A stretch of 63,060 nucleotides of DNA. It comes from an uncultured Opitutia bacterium (GTDB taxonomy: Bacteria > Verrucomicrobiota > Verrucomicrobiia > Opitutales > Opitutaceae). Where the stretch lies: the NCBI GenBank assembly GCA_903830425.1, contig CAIKTR010000025.1, forward strand, positions 1 to 63,060. Direction: 5' to 3'. The first letter of the stretch is position 1; the number at the start of each line of letters is the position of its first letter. The notes under the pieces are model-generated. The model did no database searches, was not told the origin of the DNA, and saw nothing but the letters and a program-made list of their open reading frames with translations. Below are positions 41,591 through 57,067 of the stretch, piece after piece. The position numbers and the translations under genes are program-made.

Positions 41591-41665
<75 letters not shown>

Positions 41666-41716
41666 CCGCCCTGTTATTTCCCAGTCAATTTTCTCGCAAA
41701 TGCGCGCTTCTTTCGC

Positions 41717-41791
41717 GCCGGCGTAGCTCAATGGTAGAGCACCTGTTTTGTAAACAGGCGGTTGCGGGTTCGAATCCCATCGCCGGCTCCA
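41717..41791 (+). tRNA. tRNA-Thr (UGU)
   Basis: Acceptor GCCGGCG pairs with CGCCGGC, the anticodon stem CCTGT/ACAGG encloses the loop TTTGTAA with TGT, the T-loop is TTCGAAT, the discriminator is T at 41788 and CCA is encoded. It follows tRNA-Lys by 51 bases and is probably on the same transcript. Confidence 0.96.
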
Positions 41792-41932
41792 CCTTTAGTG
41801 CACAGGCGGCGAAGGACCCGCCGGCGGCCGCCGGCGGACCGCAACAGGTAGAGGATCGACGGTCGCCGAGTTGAGGCGCGCGCAAGATGTTCCCCCAGGC
41901 CCGGACCGAGGGGGACGCGGTTAAGTTTTCAC

Positions 41933-42006
41933 TGCCCGATGGTGTAATGGTAGCACAAACGACTCTGACTCGTTTTGTCTAGGTTCGACTCCTAGTCGGG
42001 CAGCCA
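41933..42006 (+). tRNA. tRNA-Gln (CUG)
   Basis: Acceptor TGCCCGA pairs with TCGGGCA, the anticodon loop CTCTGAC carries CTG, the T-arm has GGTTCGACTCC, discriminator G at 42003 and encoded CCA. The presence of gatCAB nearby suits a genome where Gln-tRNA may be made by transamidation, though a GlnRS elsewhere cannot be excluded. Confidence 0.95.
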
Positions 42007-42346: not shown

Positions 42347-43015
42347 ATGATCAACCAAAGCCTCCCCCTCGCGTTTCTCCTCGGCGACGACACCATCATG
42401 GAACTGTTCATGAAGGGTCGCCAAATCATGTGGCCGATTCTCCTCCTCTCGTTCGTCGGCCTCACCGTCGTCGTCGAGCGCCTGCTCTTCATCGTCCGTG
42501 AGAACGGCACCCGCGAGCCCGAGGTCGTCGAGAAGATGCTGGAGCACGTCGAGCGCCGGGATATCGAGGGCGCGGTCGAGATCGGCAAGAAGAGCAAGGA
42601 TTTCGTCGCCCGCATTCTGGTGTACAGCCTGACGAACAAGGAGTTCTCCCTCACCAACGCCTTCATCCGCGCCTCCGGGCAGGAACTGGCCCGCTACCAG
42701 CAGGGCATCGCGACGCTCGACACCGTCATCACCGCCGCCCCGATGCTCGGCCTGCTCGGCACCGTCACCGGGATGATGCGCACCTTCGGCAGCATGACGG
42801 GCGACATCGCCACGGCCAGCGGCCAGATCACGGGTGGTGTGGCTGAGGCCCTCATCGCGACCGCCGCCGGTCTCTTTATCGCGATCACCGCCCTCCTGCC
42901 TTACAATTACCTGAATGCCCGCATCGAAGAGGCCAAGCACGAGGTCGCCGACGCGTCCAACGCCCTCGAGCTCATCATCAAGAAGTCCGAGACCAACGCC
43001 CCGTTCAGTCGCTGA
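42347..43015 (+). CDS. exbB: ExbB/TolQ/MotA-family proton channel
   Basis: A 222-residue inner-membrane protein with three helices near 29-48, 124-146 and 164-187. The C-terminal pair carries the family signature APMLGLLGTVTGMMRTF and GGVAEALIATAAGLFIAI. Together with ExbD it converts proton flow into force on TonB. It heads a seven-gene plus-strand cluster. ATG 42347 follows a pyrimidine tract; an internal Met-18 just before the first helix is an alternative start. Confidence 0.93.
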   Translation: MINQSLPLAFLLGDDTIMELFMKGRQIMWPILLLSFVGLTVVVERLLFIVRENGTREPEVVEKMLEHVERRDIEGAVEIGKKSKDFVARILVYSLTNKEFSLTNAFIRASGQELARYQQGIATLDTVITAAPMLGLLGTVTGMMRTFGSMTGDIATASGQITGGVAEALIATAAGLFIAITALLPYNYLNARIEEAKHEVADASNALELIIKKSETNAPFSR

Positions 43016-43067
43016 TTAGCCAAGCAATTGGCGGCGGCATCGTCTACTCCCTCGACCCACCTTATCC

Positions 43068-43502
43068 ATGGCAGGATCATCCGGCGGCAGCAGTGGCGGC
43101 AAAAAGAAGGCACGTATCGAGATCATTCCCCTGATCGACGTCATCTTCTTCCTGCTCGCGACCTTCGTCCTGTTCACGCTTTCGCTGAACAAGTCGAATG
43201 GCCTGGCGGGCGTTAAAGTGCCCGACTCGGAGACGGGCGAACCCCGCGATCCGGCTGATACCGCAACCATCAGCGTGACCCAGGAAGGCACTCTGGCTTG
43301 GAACAAGGATCCCGTTGCGCTCGATGAGTTTATCAACCGTCTGAGGGCTTATCACACCTCGAATCCGGAAGGTCGCATCCTCATCAACGGTGATGAGAAC
43401 GCCTCGTTCTCCGCCGTTTTTGGCTACGCCATCGACGAAGTCCGCAAGTCCGGGGCTTCCAAGGTCTTCATTGAGACCCGCGTCCGCCCGGCGGGCAAGT
43501 AG
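43068..43502 (+). CDS. exbD: ExbD/TolR-family protein 1
   Basis: A 144-residue bitopic protein. The single helix (about 19-40) has the functionally essential Asp-24 in IPLIDVIFFLL. The periplasmic domain carries the ExbD pattern ISVTQEGTLAWN and INGDENASFSAVFGYAIDEVRKSGASKVFIETR. It starts 52 bases after exbB. The first 40 residues are almost identical to those of the next gene, pointing to tandem duplication. Confidence 0.93.
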   Translation: MAGSSGGSSGGKKKARIEIIPLIDVIFFLLATFVLFTLSLNKSNGLAGVKVPDSETGEPRDPADTATISVTQEGTLAWNKDPVALDEFINRLRAYHTSNPEGRILINGDENASFSAVFGYAIDEVRKSGASKVFIETRVRPAGK

Positions 43503-43556
43503 ACTCCGGTCCGCCGCGCCTTTCCTCCCCTTTCACTCTCGCTAAATTTCACCACC

Positions 43557-43985
43557 ATGGCCGGTTCCAGCTCCAAAGTCGAAGACGGCAAGAAGAAGGC
43601 GCGCATTGAGATCATCCCCCTCATCGACGTCATCTTCTTCCTGCTCGCGACCTTTGTTTTGTTCACGCTGTCGCTGAGCAAAATCGCCTCCCTGCCGGTC
43701 AATCTCCCGGTCCCGGTGACGACGCCCAGCCCGCCGGACCCCGACATGGTCACCCTGCAGATTTCCGACCAGGGCACCTGCTACTGGAACAAGGAACTCA
43801 TCCAGATCGGTGAAATCGCCCCCCGTCTCTCCAACCTGAAGACCCGCGTGCCGAATCCCCGGGTGCTGATCGCCGGCGACGACCGGGCCAAGTTTGGCAT
43901 CACGGTGACCGCCCTCGACGAGGTGCGCAAAGCCGGCATCACCCAGGTCTCCGTCGAGACCCGCGTTCGCGCCACCGGTCGGTAA
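43557..43985 (+). CDS. exbD: ExbD/TolR-family protein 2
   Basis: A 142-residue paralogue of the preceding gene. Asp-24 in IPLIDVIFFLL is conserved. The periplasmic domain is diverged (VTLQISDQGTCYWNKELIQIGEIAP, AGDDRAKFGITVTALDEVRKAGITQV). Two different ExbDs could form a heterodimer in the ExbB pore or serve different TonB contexts. Spacing is 54 bases after exbD1 and 21 before tonB. Confidence 0.93.
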   Translation: MAGSSSKVEDGKKKARIEIIPLIDVIFFLLATFVLFTLSLSKIASLPVNLPVPVTTPSPPDPDMVTLQISDQGTCYWNKELIQIGEIAPRLSNLKTRVPNPRVLIAGDDRAKFGITVTALDEVRKAGITQVSVETRVRATGR

Positions 43986-44006
43986 ACCCACGAGCGACCC
44001 TCCATC

Positions 44007-44660
44007 ATGCGCCGCGATTTAATCATCGGTCTCATCGTTTCCCTGCTTCTCCATGGGGGTGTCACTTGGCTGAGCGAGGCCTTCGGGCATCCCGCGCTCA
44101 AGGCCAAGCCCAAGCAGGAGGAGAAGCTGATCCAGATCGAGATGCCGCCCATTGAGCCGGATGAGCCGGAGAAGGTCGTCGCCGAGGACCAGCCCGACAC
44201 CCCGCTTGAATTTGCCCCCCCGATGCAGGCCGACGTGCCGCAGGTGGTGCAGTTGGACTCCTTCGTCCAGCCCCTCCAGCCTCCGCCGCCCGAGAATCTC
44301 AAGCCCAACGCCGGAGCCATCGTGATTCCGCAGGGCGCCGGGCGCGGCCTGGGCAAGGGCATCGAGGTGTTCGACATCTCGAAGCTCGATCAGGTGCCGG
44401 TCCCGAAGTTCCAGGCCCGGCCCCAGTACCCGTTTGAAATGCGCCGCTCCGGTGTGGCGGGCGAAGTCGTGGTGGATTTCATCGTCGATACGAACGGTGA
44501 CGTGCGCAACCCCTACGCCGCGCGTTCCACCCAGCGCGAGTTTGAAGCCTCAGCCGTCCAAGCCGTGGGCAAATGGAAGTTCCGTCCCGGCAAAAAAGGC
44601 GGCCGCTCGGTCAACACTCACATGCAGGTGCCCATCGTCTTCACCCTGAACGAGGAATAA
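44007..44660 (+). CDS. tonB: TonB-family energy transducer
   Basis: A 217-residue protein: an N-terminal helix IIGLIVSLLLHGGVTWL with the His that is typical of TonB, an acidic and Pro-rich middle (about 40-105), and a C-terminal TonB domain starting QYPFEMRRSGVAGEVVVDFIVDTNGDV and ending KWKFRPGKKGGRSVNTHMQVPIVF. It couples ExbBD to outer-membrane receptors. It is followed after six bases by the TPR gene. Confidence 0.92.
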   Translation: MRRDLIIGLIVSLLLHGGVTWLSEAFGHPALKAKPKQEEKLIQIEMPPIEPDEPEKVVAEDQPDTPLEFAPPMQADVPQVVQLDSFVQPLQPPPPENLKPNAGAIVIPQGAGRGLGKGIEVFDISKLDQVPVPKFQARPQYPFEMRRSGVAGEVVVDFIVDTNGDVRNPYAARSTQREFEASAVQAVGKWKFRPGKKGGRSVNTHMQVPIVFTLNEE

Positions 44661-44666
44661 TCCACC

Positions 44667-46067
44667 GTGCCCGACATTTTCCCCCAATTTTCCTCCCGGC
44701 CGGGTCGCCTGGCCCTCATCCTCGTCCTCGCCTTGGCGGCGTCCCCTCGTAGCGGGGCGAACGAACCGGCCCAGCTCACGGAGAGGACCTCTGAGGAGCT
44801 GAACAAGCTCAAGCCCTACACGGATGCCAAGAACTGGGAGGGCGCGCTGGCGCTGCTCGACCGCATGCAGACCAACGTGGGGCCGACCACGTACGACTTC
44901 GCGATCATCGCGGACATCAAGTCGAAGATCTACATGTCGAAGTCCGACTATGCCAAGGCGATCGAGCCCATGGAGGCCACTGTGCGACTCGCGGATGCCT
45001 ACGGCTATTTCGACGAGCATGATGTCGCTGAAAAGGTGTATTATCTGGTCCAACTCTTCTACCAGGAGGCCACCGCGACCAAGTCCGTCGCCCTGCAGCA
45101 GCAGTATTTCAACAAGTCGGCCGGTTACATCAAGCGCTGGATCAACAGCCCCGTGGGCAAGGCTACCGGCGATGCGCAGCGCCAGGACGCCGCCCTGCTT
45201 TACGCCTCCATCCTCTACAACGAGGCCATCATCAATCCCGAGAAGATCGATGCCAAGCTGCTGAAGCAGTCCCAGGCGGAAATTGACAGCGGGCTGCTGG
45301 GCACCCCGCGCCCGAAGGAAACATTCTACGTGCTGATGCTGGCCATCGCCCAGCAGGAGGGCAACTACGCCCGCGCCTCCGAAGTCCTCGAACTGCTCGT
45401 TAAGCAGTACCCCGGCAAGAAGGACTACTGGTCCCAGCTGGTAGCCACCTATCTCAACCTCGCCCTCGACAAGAGCGAGGAGAAGTCCCGCCAGTACAAC
45501 ATCCGCGCCATTCTCGCGGCGGAGCGGTCGCAGGCCCTCGGCTTCGGCAAGACCCCGAAGGACAACTTCAACCTGGTGGGCATCTACATCAATTTGGGCC
45601 AGTACGGCAAGGCCACCGAGCTGCTGCATGCGGGCCTGCGGAAGAAAACGATCGAGTCCACCCAGAAGAACTGGGAATACCTCGCCTACTCGTACCAGCA
45701 GGTCGACAAGCCCTATCAGGCGATCGACGTGCTCAAGGAAGCCGCCGTCCAGTTTCCGAGATCCGGCCAGCTGGACTATCAGGTTGCCCAGATCTACTAC
45801 TCCCTCGACAAGGGCGAGGAGGCCTATCGCAGCCTGTCAGCCGCCGTGGCCAAGGGTAACCTCGAGAAGCCCGGCGCGGTCTACAATTTCCTCGCCTATA
45901 TCGGCTTTGAAAGACGGCGCTATGACGAGGCCCTCATCGCGGTCAACAAGGCCATCTCCTATACCGAATCCTCCCACGACACCCAACTTCCGCGTCTGAA
46001 GCAGGCCATCGAGGACGCGATCAAGGAACGGAACCAGGTCAAGACCACGGCTCCGCGCTCCCTGTAA
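44667..46067 (+). CDS. secreted TPR-repeat protein
   Basis: A 466-residue exported protein with a signal peptide (LALILVLALAASPRSGA, to about residue 35) and TPR-like helical pairs over most of its length, e.g. TDAKNWEGALALLDRM, SKSDYAKAIEPMEATVRLAD, EGNYARASEVLELLVKQYP, YGKATELLHAG and RRYDEALIAVNKAI. It is periplasmic. The start is a GTG six bases after tonB. Its place next to TonB suggests a partner or assembly factor for the complex, in the manner of TPR proteins in other Ton-like systems; that role is inferred. Confidence 0.85.
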   Translation: MPDIFPQFSSRPGRLALILVLALAASPRSGANEPAQLTERTSEELNKLKPYTDAKNWEGALALLDRMQTNVGPTTYDFAIIADIKSKIYMSKSDYAKAIEPMEATVRLADAYGYFDEHDVAEKVYYLVQLFYQEATATKSVALQQQYFNKSAGYIKRWINSPVGKATGDAQRQDAALLYASILYNEAIINPEKIDAKLLKQSQAEIDSGLLGTPRPKETFYVLMLAIAQQEGNYARASEVLELLVKQYPGKKDYWSQLVATYLNLALDKSEEKSRQYNIRAILAAERSQALGFGKTPKDNFNLVGIYINLGQYGKATELLHAGLRKKTIESTQKNWEYLAYSYQQVDKPYQAIDVLKEAAVQFPRSGQLDYQVAQIYYSLDKGEEAYRSLSAAVAKGNLEKPGAVYNFLAYIGFERRRYDEALIAVNKAISYTESSHDTQLPRLKQAIEDAIKERNQVKTTAPRSL

Positions 46068-46089
46068 TCCTGCAACCCCTTTTATCATC

Positions 46090-46638
46090 ATGAAGAAAAG
46101 CTTCGTCTACGTCCTCGCCCCGATTGTCGCGTTGATCATTTTCGGTGCCATCTACTGGAACTTCAGCTCAGGCTATGAGGCCAAGGAAGAAGCCAAGGCC
46201 CTGAAGGTGAAGCAGGAGAAGGAGGCCAAGCTGCTCGCCCAGGCCAAGGCCAACGAGCAGGCCATCAAGGATGCCAACGCCGGGGTGCTGCGCCGCAAGG
46301 CCGAGCGCGAGGCCAAGGAAGCCAAGGACAAGAAGGATCACGAGGCGCGCCTGGTCGCCACGGATGCCCGGGACAAGGCCTTTGCCGACAAGGAGAAGTT
46401 CGCCAAGCTCGTCACCCGCCTGGAGAACGACATCAAGAACGAGCAAAGCGCCATCACCAAGCTCGGGGAGGAGAAGAAGATGGCGGTTGAGGAGCAGGCC
46501 TTCCTCCGCACCTACGTGCAAAAGGCCGAGGAGAACGTCAAAAACCTCCGGCAGGTCCTGGAAAAGATCGCCGCCGCCGATGCCGCCCGTGCCGCCGCGG
46601 AAGCCGCCGCCGCCCGCGCCGCCAAGAATAAAGAATAA
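46090..46638 (+). CDS. membrane-anchored coiled-coil protein 1
   Basis: A 182-residue protein with one N-terminal helix (VYVLAPIVALIIFGAIYW, about 7-24) and then a continuous charged, Ala/Lys/Glu-rich coiled coil to the C-terminus. The coil probably lies in the periplasm. No family is recognised. It is 23 bases after the TPR gene and is paralogous in layout, not obviously in sequence, to the next gene. Confidence 0.75.
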   Translation: MKKSFVYVLAPIVALIIFGAIYWNFSSGYEAKEEAKALKVKQEKEAKLLAQAKANEQAIKDANAGVLRRKAEREAKEAKDKKDHEARLVATDARDKAFADKEKFAKLVTRLENDIKNEQSAITKLGEEKKMAVEEQAFLRTYVQKAEENVKNLRQVLEKIAAADAARAAAEAAAARAAKNKE

Positions 46639-46669
46639 CAACTCATAACCCGCCTACCTTTACCCTCCC

Positions 46670-47209
46670 ATGAAAAAGTGGATGTACGTCATTTCGGTCA
46701 GCGTCCTGCTGGCGGTATTCCTTGCCCTGTATTTCTCCGAAGCCGAAAAGATCGAGCACCGGGAGAAGGCCCAAATGGCCAAGGTGGCCGAGCTGAAGCG
46801 GGTGGAAGACGCCCGCAAGGCCTCCGTCGAGGCCAAGGCCCGCGCCGATGCCGAGAAGCGCGCCGCCGACCGGGCCGCCGAGGAAGCCAAGAAGGAGTCC
46901 GAGAAACTCGCCCGCTGGGAAGAGGACGGCCGCAAGATTCAGGAGGCCACGGACAAGTTCACCACGGAGGCCGACAGCAGCGCCAAGACGGCGGCCGAGC
47001 TTGAGGTCAAGCTCAGCACCCTGCGCGCCGCCAAGGAGAAGCTCAACCGCGAGGCCTTCGAGTTCGCCAAGCAGGTCGAAATGGGCAAGATCAGCCGCCG
47101 CTCCGCCGAAATCGAGATCCAGCGTACCGTCGAGATGATCGCCCGCCGCGCGGCCGAGAGCACCCTCAGCCGCATGCCGGCCATCGCCACTCCCCCGCCC
47201 TCTTCTTAA
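46670..47209 (+). CDS. membrane-anchored coiled-coil protein 2
   Basis: A 179-residue protein with an N-terminal helix (MYVISVSVLLAVFLALYF, about 4-21) and a long coiled coil rich in Ala, Glu and Lys. The C-terminal end becomes mixed (RMPAIATPPPSS). No family is recognised. It is the last gene of the ExbB-TonB cluster and is followed by a strong terminator, so transcription of the seven genes ends here. Confidence 0.75.
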   Translation: MKKWMYVISVSVLLAVFLALYFSEAEKIEHREKAQMAKVAELKRVEDARKASVEAKARADAEKRAADRAAEEAKKESEKLARWEEDGRKIQEATDKFTTEADSSAKTAAELEVKLSTLRAAKEKLNREAFEFAKQVEMGKISRRSAEIEIQRTVEMIARRAAESTLSRMPAIATPPPSS

Positions 47210-47233: not shown

Positions 47234-47268
47234 AAGGCCCGGATCGCAAGATCCGGGCCTTATTTATT
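47234..47268 (+). terminator. rho-independent terminator of the TonB cluster
   Basis: A twelve-base-pair stem AAGGCCCGGATC/GATCCGGGCCTT with a GCAA tetraloop, followed by ATTTATTT. It lies 24 bases after the last coiled-coil gene and is the strongest hairpin terminator in the window. Confidence 0.9.
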
Positions 47269-47352: not shown

Positions 47353-47429
<77 letters not shown>

Positions 47430-54694: not shown

Positions 54695-57067
54695 TCAGTA
54701 GCGCGTGCCAAAGGAAAAATTGAACTGATTGCCGCGCTTGGTCAGGGAGTCGCCGGTCAGCGGAATGCCAAAATCGAGGCTGAGCGGCGAACCCGCCACA
54801 AACAGGCGCAGGCCGAAGCCGATATTGTCGGCATATTGGATCGGGCTGAAGTCGCCCATGCCCCGGTTGACGAAGCCGGCGTCGTAAAAGAGCGCGAACC
54901 GGATGGGGCTCACGATGTCGAGCGAGTACTCCGCGCTGAAAAACCCGTAGGTCTTGCCGCCGATCGGCTCGCCGTAGGCGTCCCGCGGGCTGACCGTGTG
55001 GTATTCAAAGCCGCGCAGGTCCGTCGGGCCGCCGAGATAGTACTTGTTGTAGTAGGCAACGTCCTTGCTGTCGCCGAAGTTCTGGATGACGCCGCCGCGG
55101 ACAATCAGGCTGAGCACCTGCTGCTGGGTCTCGAAGATCGGGAAAAACTGGGATCCCCGCAGCTCCAGGCGGTAGTAGTTGTCATCGCCGCCAAAGGGCC
55201 CGCCAGCGACCTCGGTGACCATGTTGACGTAGTTGCCGGCCGTGGTGTTGACGATCTTGTCGCGAGTGTCGCGCAGGATGGAGAACCCGACCTTGGACAC
55301 CTTGTTGTCGCCCGAGAGCTCGCTGATGACGGAGGAGGCCGACGCGCTGACGTCCTTGATGGTGATGATCGAGTAGGAGTAGGACAGACGACCCTCGACG
55401 AGTTCGAAGAGGCGCTTGCGGCCGTAGACCTCGATGCCCGTGACCACCTGGTTGTAATAGGTGCTGGTGTACTCCGCGCTCTGGCGGAACAGGTTGAAGC
55501 CCATCGCCAGCTGCCGCTGGAAGACCCAGGGCTCCTCGAAGGAAAGCAGCAGGTCGCTCGAGACCGAGCCCACCTGCAGCCGCAGCTTGAATTTCTGGCC
55601 GTCGCCCTGGAACAGGGACCGGCGATTGAACAGGTCGAAGTTGGACTGGGACACCTCGGCGAAGACGGTCGCCCGTTCCAGCGAGCTGAAGCCCGCGCCG
55701 AAGGTCAGGTTGCCGGTGCGCCCTTCCTTGACCGCGATGCGCATGTTCCGACGTCCGGGGATGTTGGTTTCCTGGGGCGTGATGCTCACATCCTCGAAGA
55801 ACCGGGTGTTCTCCAGCTTCAGCTTGCCAATCTTCATGCTGATGGTGCTGAAGACGTCGCCCGGCCCGAGGGTGAGTTCCCGCAGGAGCACCGTGCTCTT
55901 GGTCTTGGTGTTGCCCTGGATGACAATGGACTCGACGTTGAACTTGCCGCTCTCGTTGACGTCGTAGACGAGGTCGATGTTGCCGGTCGTGATGTTCGAC
56001 TTGCGGGTGAGGCGGACCTGCGTCTCGAGGTAGCCGTCGCGGCCGTAAAACTCCTCGATGCGCTCCTTGTCCTTCTCGATCTTGGACGGGGTGAAAATCA
56101 TCCCGCTCTTCTGGCGCAGCACGCGCTTGAGCAGCGCCTCGGGGTGCAGCTTGCTGCCCGTGACCGCGATCGAACCGATCCGGTACCGGCGGCCTTCAAT
56201 CACGCCGATTGTGATGACCAGGCGGTCCGGCTTGGGATAATCAAACGAGATCTTGTTGCGGGGGATTTCCACGTCGAGATACCCCTGCTCGCGGTAGTAA
56301 TCCCGCAGTTTTTCCAGATCGTCGTCAAACTGGTCGTCCTTGAACCGGCCGGTGTCGGTCAGCCAGGAGAAAATATTCCACTTCTTGGTCTCCATCTCGC
56401 CGGCCAGCTTCTTGGGCTTGACGTGGCCGTTGCCGGAAAACTTCACCAGCGAAATGCGCACCTTGGCCCCTTCCTTGATCTTGAAAATCACGGTGCCAAA
56501 GCTCGTGGCGCGGTCGCGCTCAATCGTGTAATTGACCGAAACCTGGTTGTACCCGGACTTCTGGTAGTACTCGCGCACCTTCTCGGCGTCCTCCTTGACC
56601 TGGCGCTCGTCGAGGGAGGCGTTCGGCTTGGTCTTCACTTCCTTGTCGAGGCGCCGGGACTTCACCTTCTTGTTGCCCTCATAGCGCACGGCCAGCACCC
56701 GGAATTTGGGCGTGACCTCCACCACCAGGTTGAAAACCCGCTCGTTCGCCGCTTCCTGCTTGATCTCGATGAACTCGAAAAGGCCGGTCTTGTAGAGCGT
56801 CCGAATGTCGCGGTCGACGATGCTACCGTCGTAGTCCCCGCCCTCGCGCAACTGCATGTTAGCTCGCACAACCTGTTCATTGACAATGGCTGTGCCGATA
56901 AACTTGACCGAGATAGTGCCCACCTTGTAGGCCACGGCGGCTGGCTGATTGGGGGCCCCGGCGGCTTCCTGGGCCCGGAGGGTCGCCCCACCCGCAATGA
57001 GGAGCAGCCAGAAGGCAATAAATGGGCCTGTGACCCGATATAACGGGTTACGTAGTAAAGTTTTCAA
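54695..57067 (-). CDS. bamA: outer membrane protein assembly factor BamA
   Basis: A 790-residue Omp85 protein: signal peptide to about residue 33, POTRA domains over roughly 45-430 (for example VGTISVKFIGTAIVNEQ and GKFNVESIVIQGNTKTKS), then a 16-strand barrel domain ending FNFSFGTRY with the C-terminal aromatic needed for insertion. GPTDLRGFEY near the end holds the conserved (V/I)RG(F/Y) loop. The only available start is a TTG at 57067, inside the 3' end of dnaB (20-base overlap), and no ATG occurs before the signal peptide. Confidence 0.95.
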   Translation of the reverse strand: MKTLLRNPLYRVTGPFIAFWLLLIAGGATLRAQEAAGAPNQPAAVAYKVGTISVKFIGTAIVNEQVVRANMQLREGGDYDGSIVDRDIRTLYKTGLFEFIEIKQEAANERVFNLVVEVTPKFRVLAVRYEGNKKVKSRRLDKEVKTKPNASLDERQVKEDAEKVREYYQKSGYNQVSVNYTIERDRATSFGTVIFKIKEGAKVRISLVKFSGNGHVKPKKLAGEMETKKWNIFSWLTDTGRFKDDQFDDDLEKLRDYYREQGYLDVEIPRNKISFDYPKPDRLVITIGVIEGRRYRIGSIAVTGSKLHPEALLKRVLRQKSGMIFTPSKIEKDKERIEEFYGRDGYLETQVRLTRKSNITTGNIDLVYDVNESGKFNVESIVIQGNTKTKSTVLLRELTLGPGDVFSTISMKIGKLKLENTRFFEDVSITPQETNIPGRRNMRIAVKEGRTGNLTFGAGFSSLERATVFAEVSQSNFDLFNRRSLFQGDGQKFKLRLQVGSVSSDLLLSFEEPWVFQRQLAMGFNLFRQSAEYTSTYYNQVVTGIEVYGRKRLFELVEGRLSYSYSIITIKDVSASASSVISELSGDNKVSKVGFSILRDTRDKIVNTTAGNYVNMVTEVAGGPFGGDDNYYRLELRGSQFFPIFETQQQVLSLIVRGGVIQNFGDSKDVAYYNKYYLGGPTDLRGFEYHTVSPRDAYGEPIGGKTYGFFSAEYSLDIVSPIRFALFYDAGFVNRGMGDFSPIQYADNIGFGLRLFVAGSPLSLDFGIPLTGDSLTKRGNQFNFSFGTRY

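Follow-up and report, generated by a model that had tools for sequence, protein, structure and literature searches.

A conserved seven-gene cluster of Opitutaceae that probably encodes a TonB energy transducer with a TtpD-type scaffold and two predicted helical rods

Seven genes in the genome of an uncultured Opitutaceae bacterium probably encode one envelope-spanning TonB energy transducer, in which a TtpD-type scaffold is combined with two helical rods that would brace TonB in place of TtpB and TtpC. The open reading frames fill positions 42347-47209 on the plus strand of the DNA stretch that we analyzed (63,060 nucleotides; the window), which is a single contig of a 3.5 Mb assembly. A reading made earlier from the letters of this DNA had proposed a cluster of ExbB, two ExbD, TonB, a TPR protein and two coiled-coil proteins with short spacings, and both points hold: the open reading frames and Pfam matches give this gene content, and the gaps between consecutive genes are 52, 54, 21, 6, 22, and 31 bp, a range of 6-54 bp.

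The first four genes encode the motor and its transducer. An ExbB-type proton channel subunit of 222 aa (42347..43015, +; PF01618, MotA_ExbB, 2.8e-27) is followed by two ExbD-type subunits of 144 aa (43068..43502, +; PF02472, 9.9e-23) and 142 aa (43557..43985, +; PF02472, 1.4e-24), each with a pore aspartate at position 24, and by a 217-aa TonB (44007..44660, +) with a TM helix carrying SxxxH (S12 and H16), a Pro-rich linker and a C-terminal TonB domain (PF03544, TonB_C, 7e-18). When relatives are aligned, the ExbB channel threonines T139 and T172 are kept in 72/72 and 68/72 sequences, and D24 is invariant in both ExbD1 (71/71) and ExbD2 (74/74). In TonB, the same holds for Y141 and W190 (both 75/75), with P142 present in 74 of the 75 relatives and S12 and H16 in 73 each. 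Four marks of a Ton system are found: the ExbB pore threonines, the ExbD pore aspartate, TonB with SxxxH and its C-terminal domain, and receptors in the genome.

The fifth gene (44667..46067, +), with a GTG start, encodes a 466-aa protein with an N-terminal signal-like stretch that is matched by several Pfam TPR models and by a TtpD profile. Profile comparison aligned it with the TtpD family over 359-384 columns at E-values of 2e-34 to 6e-52 (99.9% probability for the match at 2e-34); an unrelated TPR protein that the source genome also encodes reached 6%. A tblastn search of 72,556 plasmid records with the window protein gave 12 matching records (from Pseudoalteromonas, Alteromonas, and Aeromonas), and in all four that were opened the TPR gene lies directly after tonB in DUF3450-TtpC-ExbB-ExbD-TonB-TPR operons. 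On the strength of the full-length profile match and the shared gene position after tonB, we assign the window protein as a full-length TtpD homologue; a search of solved structures with its profile returned generic and designed TPR proteins only. The corresponding Vibrio operon reads ttpB-ttpC-exbB2-exbD2-tonB2-ttpD, in which TonB2-dependent use of siderophores needs both ttpB2 and ttpD2; deleting either one in V. vulnificus abolishes it (PMC6957404). The suggestion that the whole cluster is an undescribed system is thus only partly upheld, as the TPR protein is a known component, TtpD, while the last two proteins and their pairing with the motor are undescribed in the literature that we searched.

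These last two proteins, here called CC1 (182 aa; 46090..46638, +) and CC2 (179 aa; 46670..47209, +), both begin with MKK, continue into one hydrophobic helix lacking an evident cleavage site, and then into a charged helix. Family alignments and AF2 models agree with an N-terminal signal-anchor followed by one long helix in each, and CC2 ends in a Pro-rich tail. No family in Pfam or NCBIfam matches either of them with a meaningful score, in line with the earlier description of both as being of unknown family, and a search of solved structures with the CC2 profile gave no match. Both genes are under purifying selection, with dN/dS of 0.23-0.31 relative to two relatives. AF2 predicts a single uninterrupted helix for CC1 (residues 3-181, pLDDT 90.5) and for CC2 (residues 3-163, pLDDT 89.7), each modelled as a single chain and of a charged, repetitive composition that AlphaFold readily draws as one long helix. 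At 0.15 nm per residue the predicted helices would measure ~27 nm and ~24 nm, ~20 residues of each lying in the membrane. Hydrophobic residues recur with a period of ~3.5 in the middle and distal parts and show little periodicity near the membrane, which suggests a charged stalk that gives way to a coiled coil. Such single-helix predictions are compatible with the scaffold or reach-extending stalk that had been proposed for these proteins. A more specific version, to which we would give well under an even chance, is that CC1 and CC2 form a paired, inner-membrane-anchored rod of about the width of the periplasm that connects the TonB motor, via the TtpD-like scaffold, with the outer membrane or wall. 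They would then constitute a new accessory stalk that replaces TtpB and TtpC while having no sequence relationship to them.

The profiles of CC1 and CC2 match each other at 98-99% (E-values of 8e-15 to 7e-20), whereas neither exceeds 3% against DUF3450 or TtpC; as these two are helical as well, they serve as a control for the CC1-CC2 match. By this measure the two are related to each other and unrelated to TtpB and TtpC, and descent of CC1/CC2 from DUF3450 or TtpC was ruled out as an explanation. One might still suppose that CC1 and CC2 are TtpB (DUF3450) and the TtpC N-terminal domain in extremely diverged form and the cluster an ordinary Ttp operon, given that all of these are helical periplasmic proteins of TonB-TPR operons. 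We consider this very improbable, as it has to contend not only with the profile comparisons but also with the position of the CC1 and CC2 genes after the motor rather than before it, with their different anchoring, and with a cluster that has no long ExbB (TtpC).

The order ExbB-ExbD-ExbD-TonB-TPR-CC1-CC2 is kept in every relative examined whose sequence is long enough, with median gaps of 51, 46, 15, 9, 23, and 21 bp. Among 100 Opitutaceae genomes, 82 have the TPR gene at an E-value of 1e-3 or better (77 of them strongly), and at all 30 of the best family loci it has ExbD1-ExbD2-TonB on one side and CC1-CC2 on the other, within the limits of each stretch. When 84,980 genomes of named species were scanned, in a survey that shares genomes with the family one and is not independent of it, 77 loci were obtained, nearly all from Opitutaceae/Opitutae (Opitutus, Lacunisphaera, Cephaloticoccus), relatives that place the window in the Opitutaceae (Verrucomicrobiota). 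All seven genes are in order at 65 of these, the other 12 being contig ends or split or overlapping frames, and the first five genes without CC1/CC2 were found at none of the 77 loci where the contig leaves room. Profile searches detected CC2 in 77/77 family genomes where the TPR match is strong, as against 2/23 of the others (Fisher p 1e-19, uncorrected for kinship of the genomes); of the two exceptions, G063 holds a full cluster in diverged form (L122), and in G091 the copy lies at a contig end. Genomes that lack the TPR gene also lack a close ExbB, except for G081 (contig end), G063 (diverged), and G117 (distant). Some genomes have 2-4 TPR copies, each adjoined by CC2, and all 14 loci that were fetched, mostly from genomes that have additional copies or coil genes, hold the full set. 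Diverged complete clusters also occur in two other families of the order (L120 and L121), and among 388 genomes surveyed across the phylum no further TPR relative outside the order reached an E-value of 1e-15.

Because the gene order recurs in dozens of genomes and CC1 and CC2 evolve as coding genes, the cluster is not a chance assembly, and because all seven genes travel together throughout the Opitutaceae, co-inheritance and order strongly support the TPR protein, CC1, and CC2 as parts of the TonB machine, as had been suspected. The conserved gene order for which a survey of Verrucomicrobiota had been proposed is present across the Opitutaceae; the opposite arrangement, ExbBD-TonB by itself with the last three genes elsewhere, was looked for in relatives and did not appear. 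It is conceivable that CC1 and CC2 are envelope proteins that share the operon for co-regulation and act outside the TonB machine, as they have no sequence link to known TonB partners. Yet the TPR gene is followed by both of them in every copy, be it a highly diverged cluster or a second, third or fourth copy elsewhere in a genome; they are absent where the cluster is absent, and no roomy locus has the first five genes alone. We regard this reading as unlikely.

Several further arrangements were noted in these surveys. Genome G005 (7.3 Mb) has four complete copies of the cluster (L139-L142), and at two loci (L149:8050-9729 and L152:4065-5821) three anchored coiled-coil genes rather than two follow the TPR gene. 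A 3.8 kb contig titled Acidobacteria (L047) carries TPR-CC1-CC2, with 57% identity in the TPR protein, and is probably a mis-binned Opitutaceae contig.

The seven genes would form a single transcript. A probable intrinsic terminator (47234..47261, +), with a 12-pair stem, a 4-base loop, and a ATTTATTT tail, lies 25 bp past the CC2 stop and is the strongest hairpin-plus-T-run candidate, and no candidate was found in the six intergenic gaps of the cluster. Candidates totalled 6 against 5.6 expected by chance, and their number was dropped as evidence; what carries information is where the last one lies and how strong it is. The common terminator of the sequence-only reading is favored on these two grounds. 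The window cluster is flanked by tRNA-Lys, tRNA-Thr, and tRNA-Gln upstream (41591-42006) and tRNA-Pro downstream (47353-47429). The upstream tRNAs are found at 50-56 of 68 loci in relatives and the downstream tRNA-Pro at 27 of 68, and by this bracketing the cluster keeps a largely ancestral position.

Four Opitutales genomes (G013, G042, G019, and G126) carry complete Vibrio-type operons (L125, L126, L127, and L128) that contain DUF3450/TtpB, a long (TtpC) and a short ExbB, one or two ExbD (two in L127 and L128), TonB, and a TtpD relative, with no CC1 or CC2. These genomes lack both a close ExbB and the seven-gene set, and their operons account for the family's three best DUF3450 matches. The operons occur far from the gammaproteobacteria, the group of the original description. 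The Vibrio-type operon is frequent among relatives without the seven-gene cluster: DUF3450 was detected in 12/22 genomes lacking the cluster versus 13/78 with it (Fisher p 7e-4, uncorrected for kinship). A strict either/or between the two was rejected, given those 13 genomes. The source genome has no DUF3450 match anywhere at an E-value of 1e-5, and the window cluster is not a Vibrio-type system proper, as TtpB and TtpC are missing. In a tree of ExbB proteins that is otherwise too poorly resolved to place the window ExbB, the ExbB2 proteins of gammaproteobacteria and of Opitutales cluster with one another, apart from the window type, with support of 100/100. SxxxH, which the seven-gene-type TonB keeps (73/75), is missing from the readable Vibrio-type TonB proteins, both gammaproteobacterial and verrucomicrobial, the start position of the one in L125 being uncertain. 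The window cluster therefore seems to join a scaffold of the TonB2 type to a motor and a TonB that are TonB1-like.

In the source genome, 16 TonB-dependent receptor plug domains score above the cut-off. The other ExbB loci comprise one Tol-like ExbB-ExbD-TolA locus on a separate contig (C199), one MotA-like locus, and two with no TonB within the 1.5 kb viewed on each side. With ~16 receptors and no other Ton-type transducer seen paired with ExbBD, the window cluster is likely the main Ton motor of this genome and likely the main TonB machine of Opitutaceae; we infer that it would power receptor-dependent uptake by the proton gradient. Two sequences deserve mention here: a 373-aa frame with a signal-like start and three tandem TonB C-terminal domains (L036; contig C55 of the source genome, ~55170-56100), with no adjoining ExbB match, and, in another family, a different small Ton cluster (L123:8033-12264, G117) with receptor, TonB, ExbB, ExbD, and a 184-aa protein that is anchored, coiled-coil-like and without a Pfam match, where a helical partner may have been taken into use independently. 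The regions upstream of exbB in 71 sequences, searched for Fur boxes, showed no clear difference from shuffled sequences.

The TPR protein and coiled coils could suit other TonB-like machines too. Non-Ton machines such as AglRQS likewise pair a single ExbB with two ExbD, and no receptor gene lies inside or next to the cluster in the source genome. The same pattern and a TPR gene are shared by the PVC-group clusters with a vWA transducer (PMC12204202). The cluster might then be a Tol-like or other non-transport force machine (for outer-membrane stabilization, polysaccharide export, or surface motility) that uses a TonB-type transducer, its rods and TPR protein contacting an outer-membrane partner. 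This we think improbable in view of the canonical SxxxH and C-terminal domain of TonB, the relationship of the TPR protein to TtpD, the separate Tol-like locus, the fact that, despite so many receptors in the genome, no second Ton-type transducer was seen beside ExbBD, and the TonB-dependent receptor genes that follow CC2 in two extra copies of the cluster (L139 and L146).

Under the preferred reading of a TonB energy transducer, the proton gradient would drive TonB through ExbB, which is presumably pentameric, and a presumed heterodimer of the two ExbD subunits; TonB would reach through the periplasm to pull the plugs of TonB-dependent receptors. The TtpD-like subunit would act as a periplasmic scaffold joining TonB and its partners. 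CC1 and CC2 would project from the inner membrane as long rods, charged in the half near the membrane and coiled-coil in the distal half, in the place of TtpB/TtpC, and their most likely role would be to guide TonB, or to brace it, on its way across the periplasm. The shape of the rods is predicted, and we infer complex formation, the ExbD heterodimer, receptor energization, and the bracing role.

A search of the open-access literature, subscription journals being outside its coverage, found no paper on the seven-gene cluster. It shares with the E. coli-type TonB-ExbB-ExbD system the catalytic residues of ExbB and ExbD and the SxxxH and C-terminal domain of TonB, and differs in having a second ExbD, a TPR protein, and two rods in one conserved cluster with the transducer. 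Tol-Pal has homologous motor and transducer types, and TolA has a long charged helix in some clades as well; however, TolB and Pal were not found among the seven window genes with Pfam or NCBIfam, and the TolA-like locus is separate. The PVC-group vWA clusters, of the same superphylum, carry a TPR gene, one TolQ-like (ExbB-like) gene, and two TolR-like (paired ExbD-like) genes, and the consulted part of their description reports no CC1 or CC2 (PMC12204202); the window transducer is instead TonB, and none of the seven proteins has a vWA match (0/7; Pfam and NCBIfam). The Vibrio TonB2/TonB3 systems (PMC6957404) likewise have ExbB, ExbD, TonB, and a homologous TPR protein directly after TonB. Unlike these, the window cluster has neither DUF3450/TtpB nor TtpC (its single ExbB has 222 aa), has two ExbD rather than one, keeps SxxxH in TonB where readable TonB2-type proteins lack it, has an ExbB that seems to fall outside the ExbB2 group in a weakly resolved tree, and adds two helical rod genes after the TPR gene. 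It is therefore best read as a lineage-specific variant of the TtpD-type TonB transporter, with two helical rods replacing TtpB/TtpC. Two conserved Opitutaceae proteins thereby gain a family annotation, and the likely main TonB machine of the family is named. Within one bacterial order the accessory set would have been partly exchanged and the TPR component kept, such that comparing both versions would separate an indispensable accessory function (TtpD) from an exchangeable one (TtpB/TtpC versus CC1/CC2).
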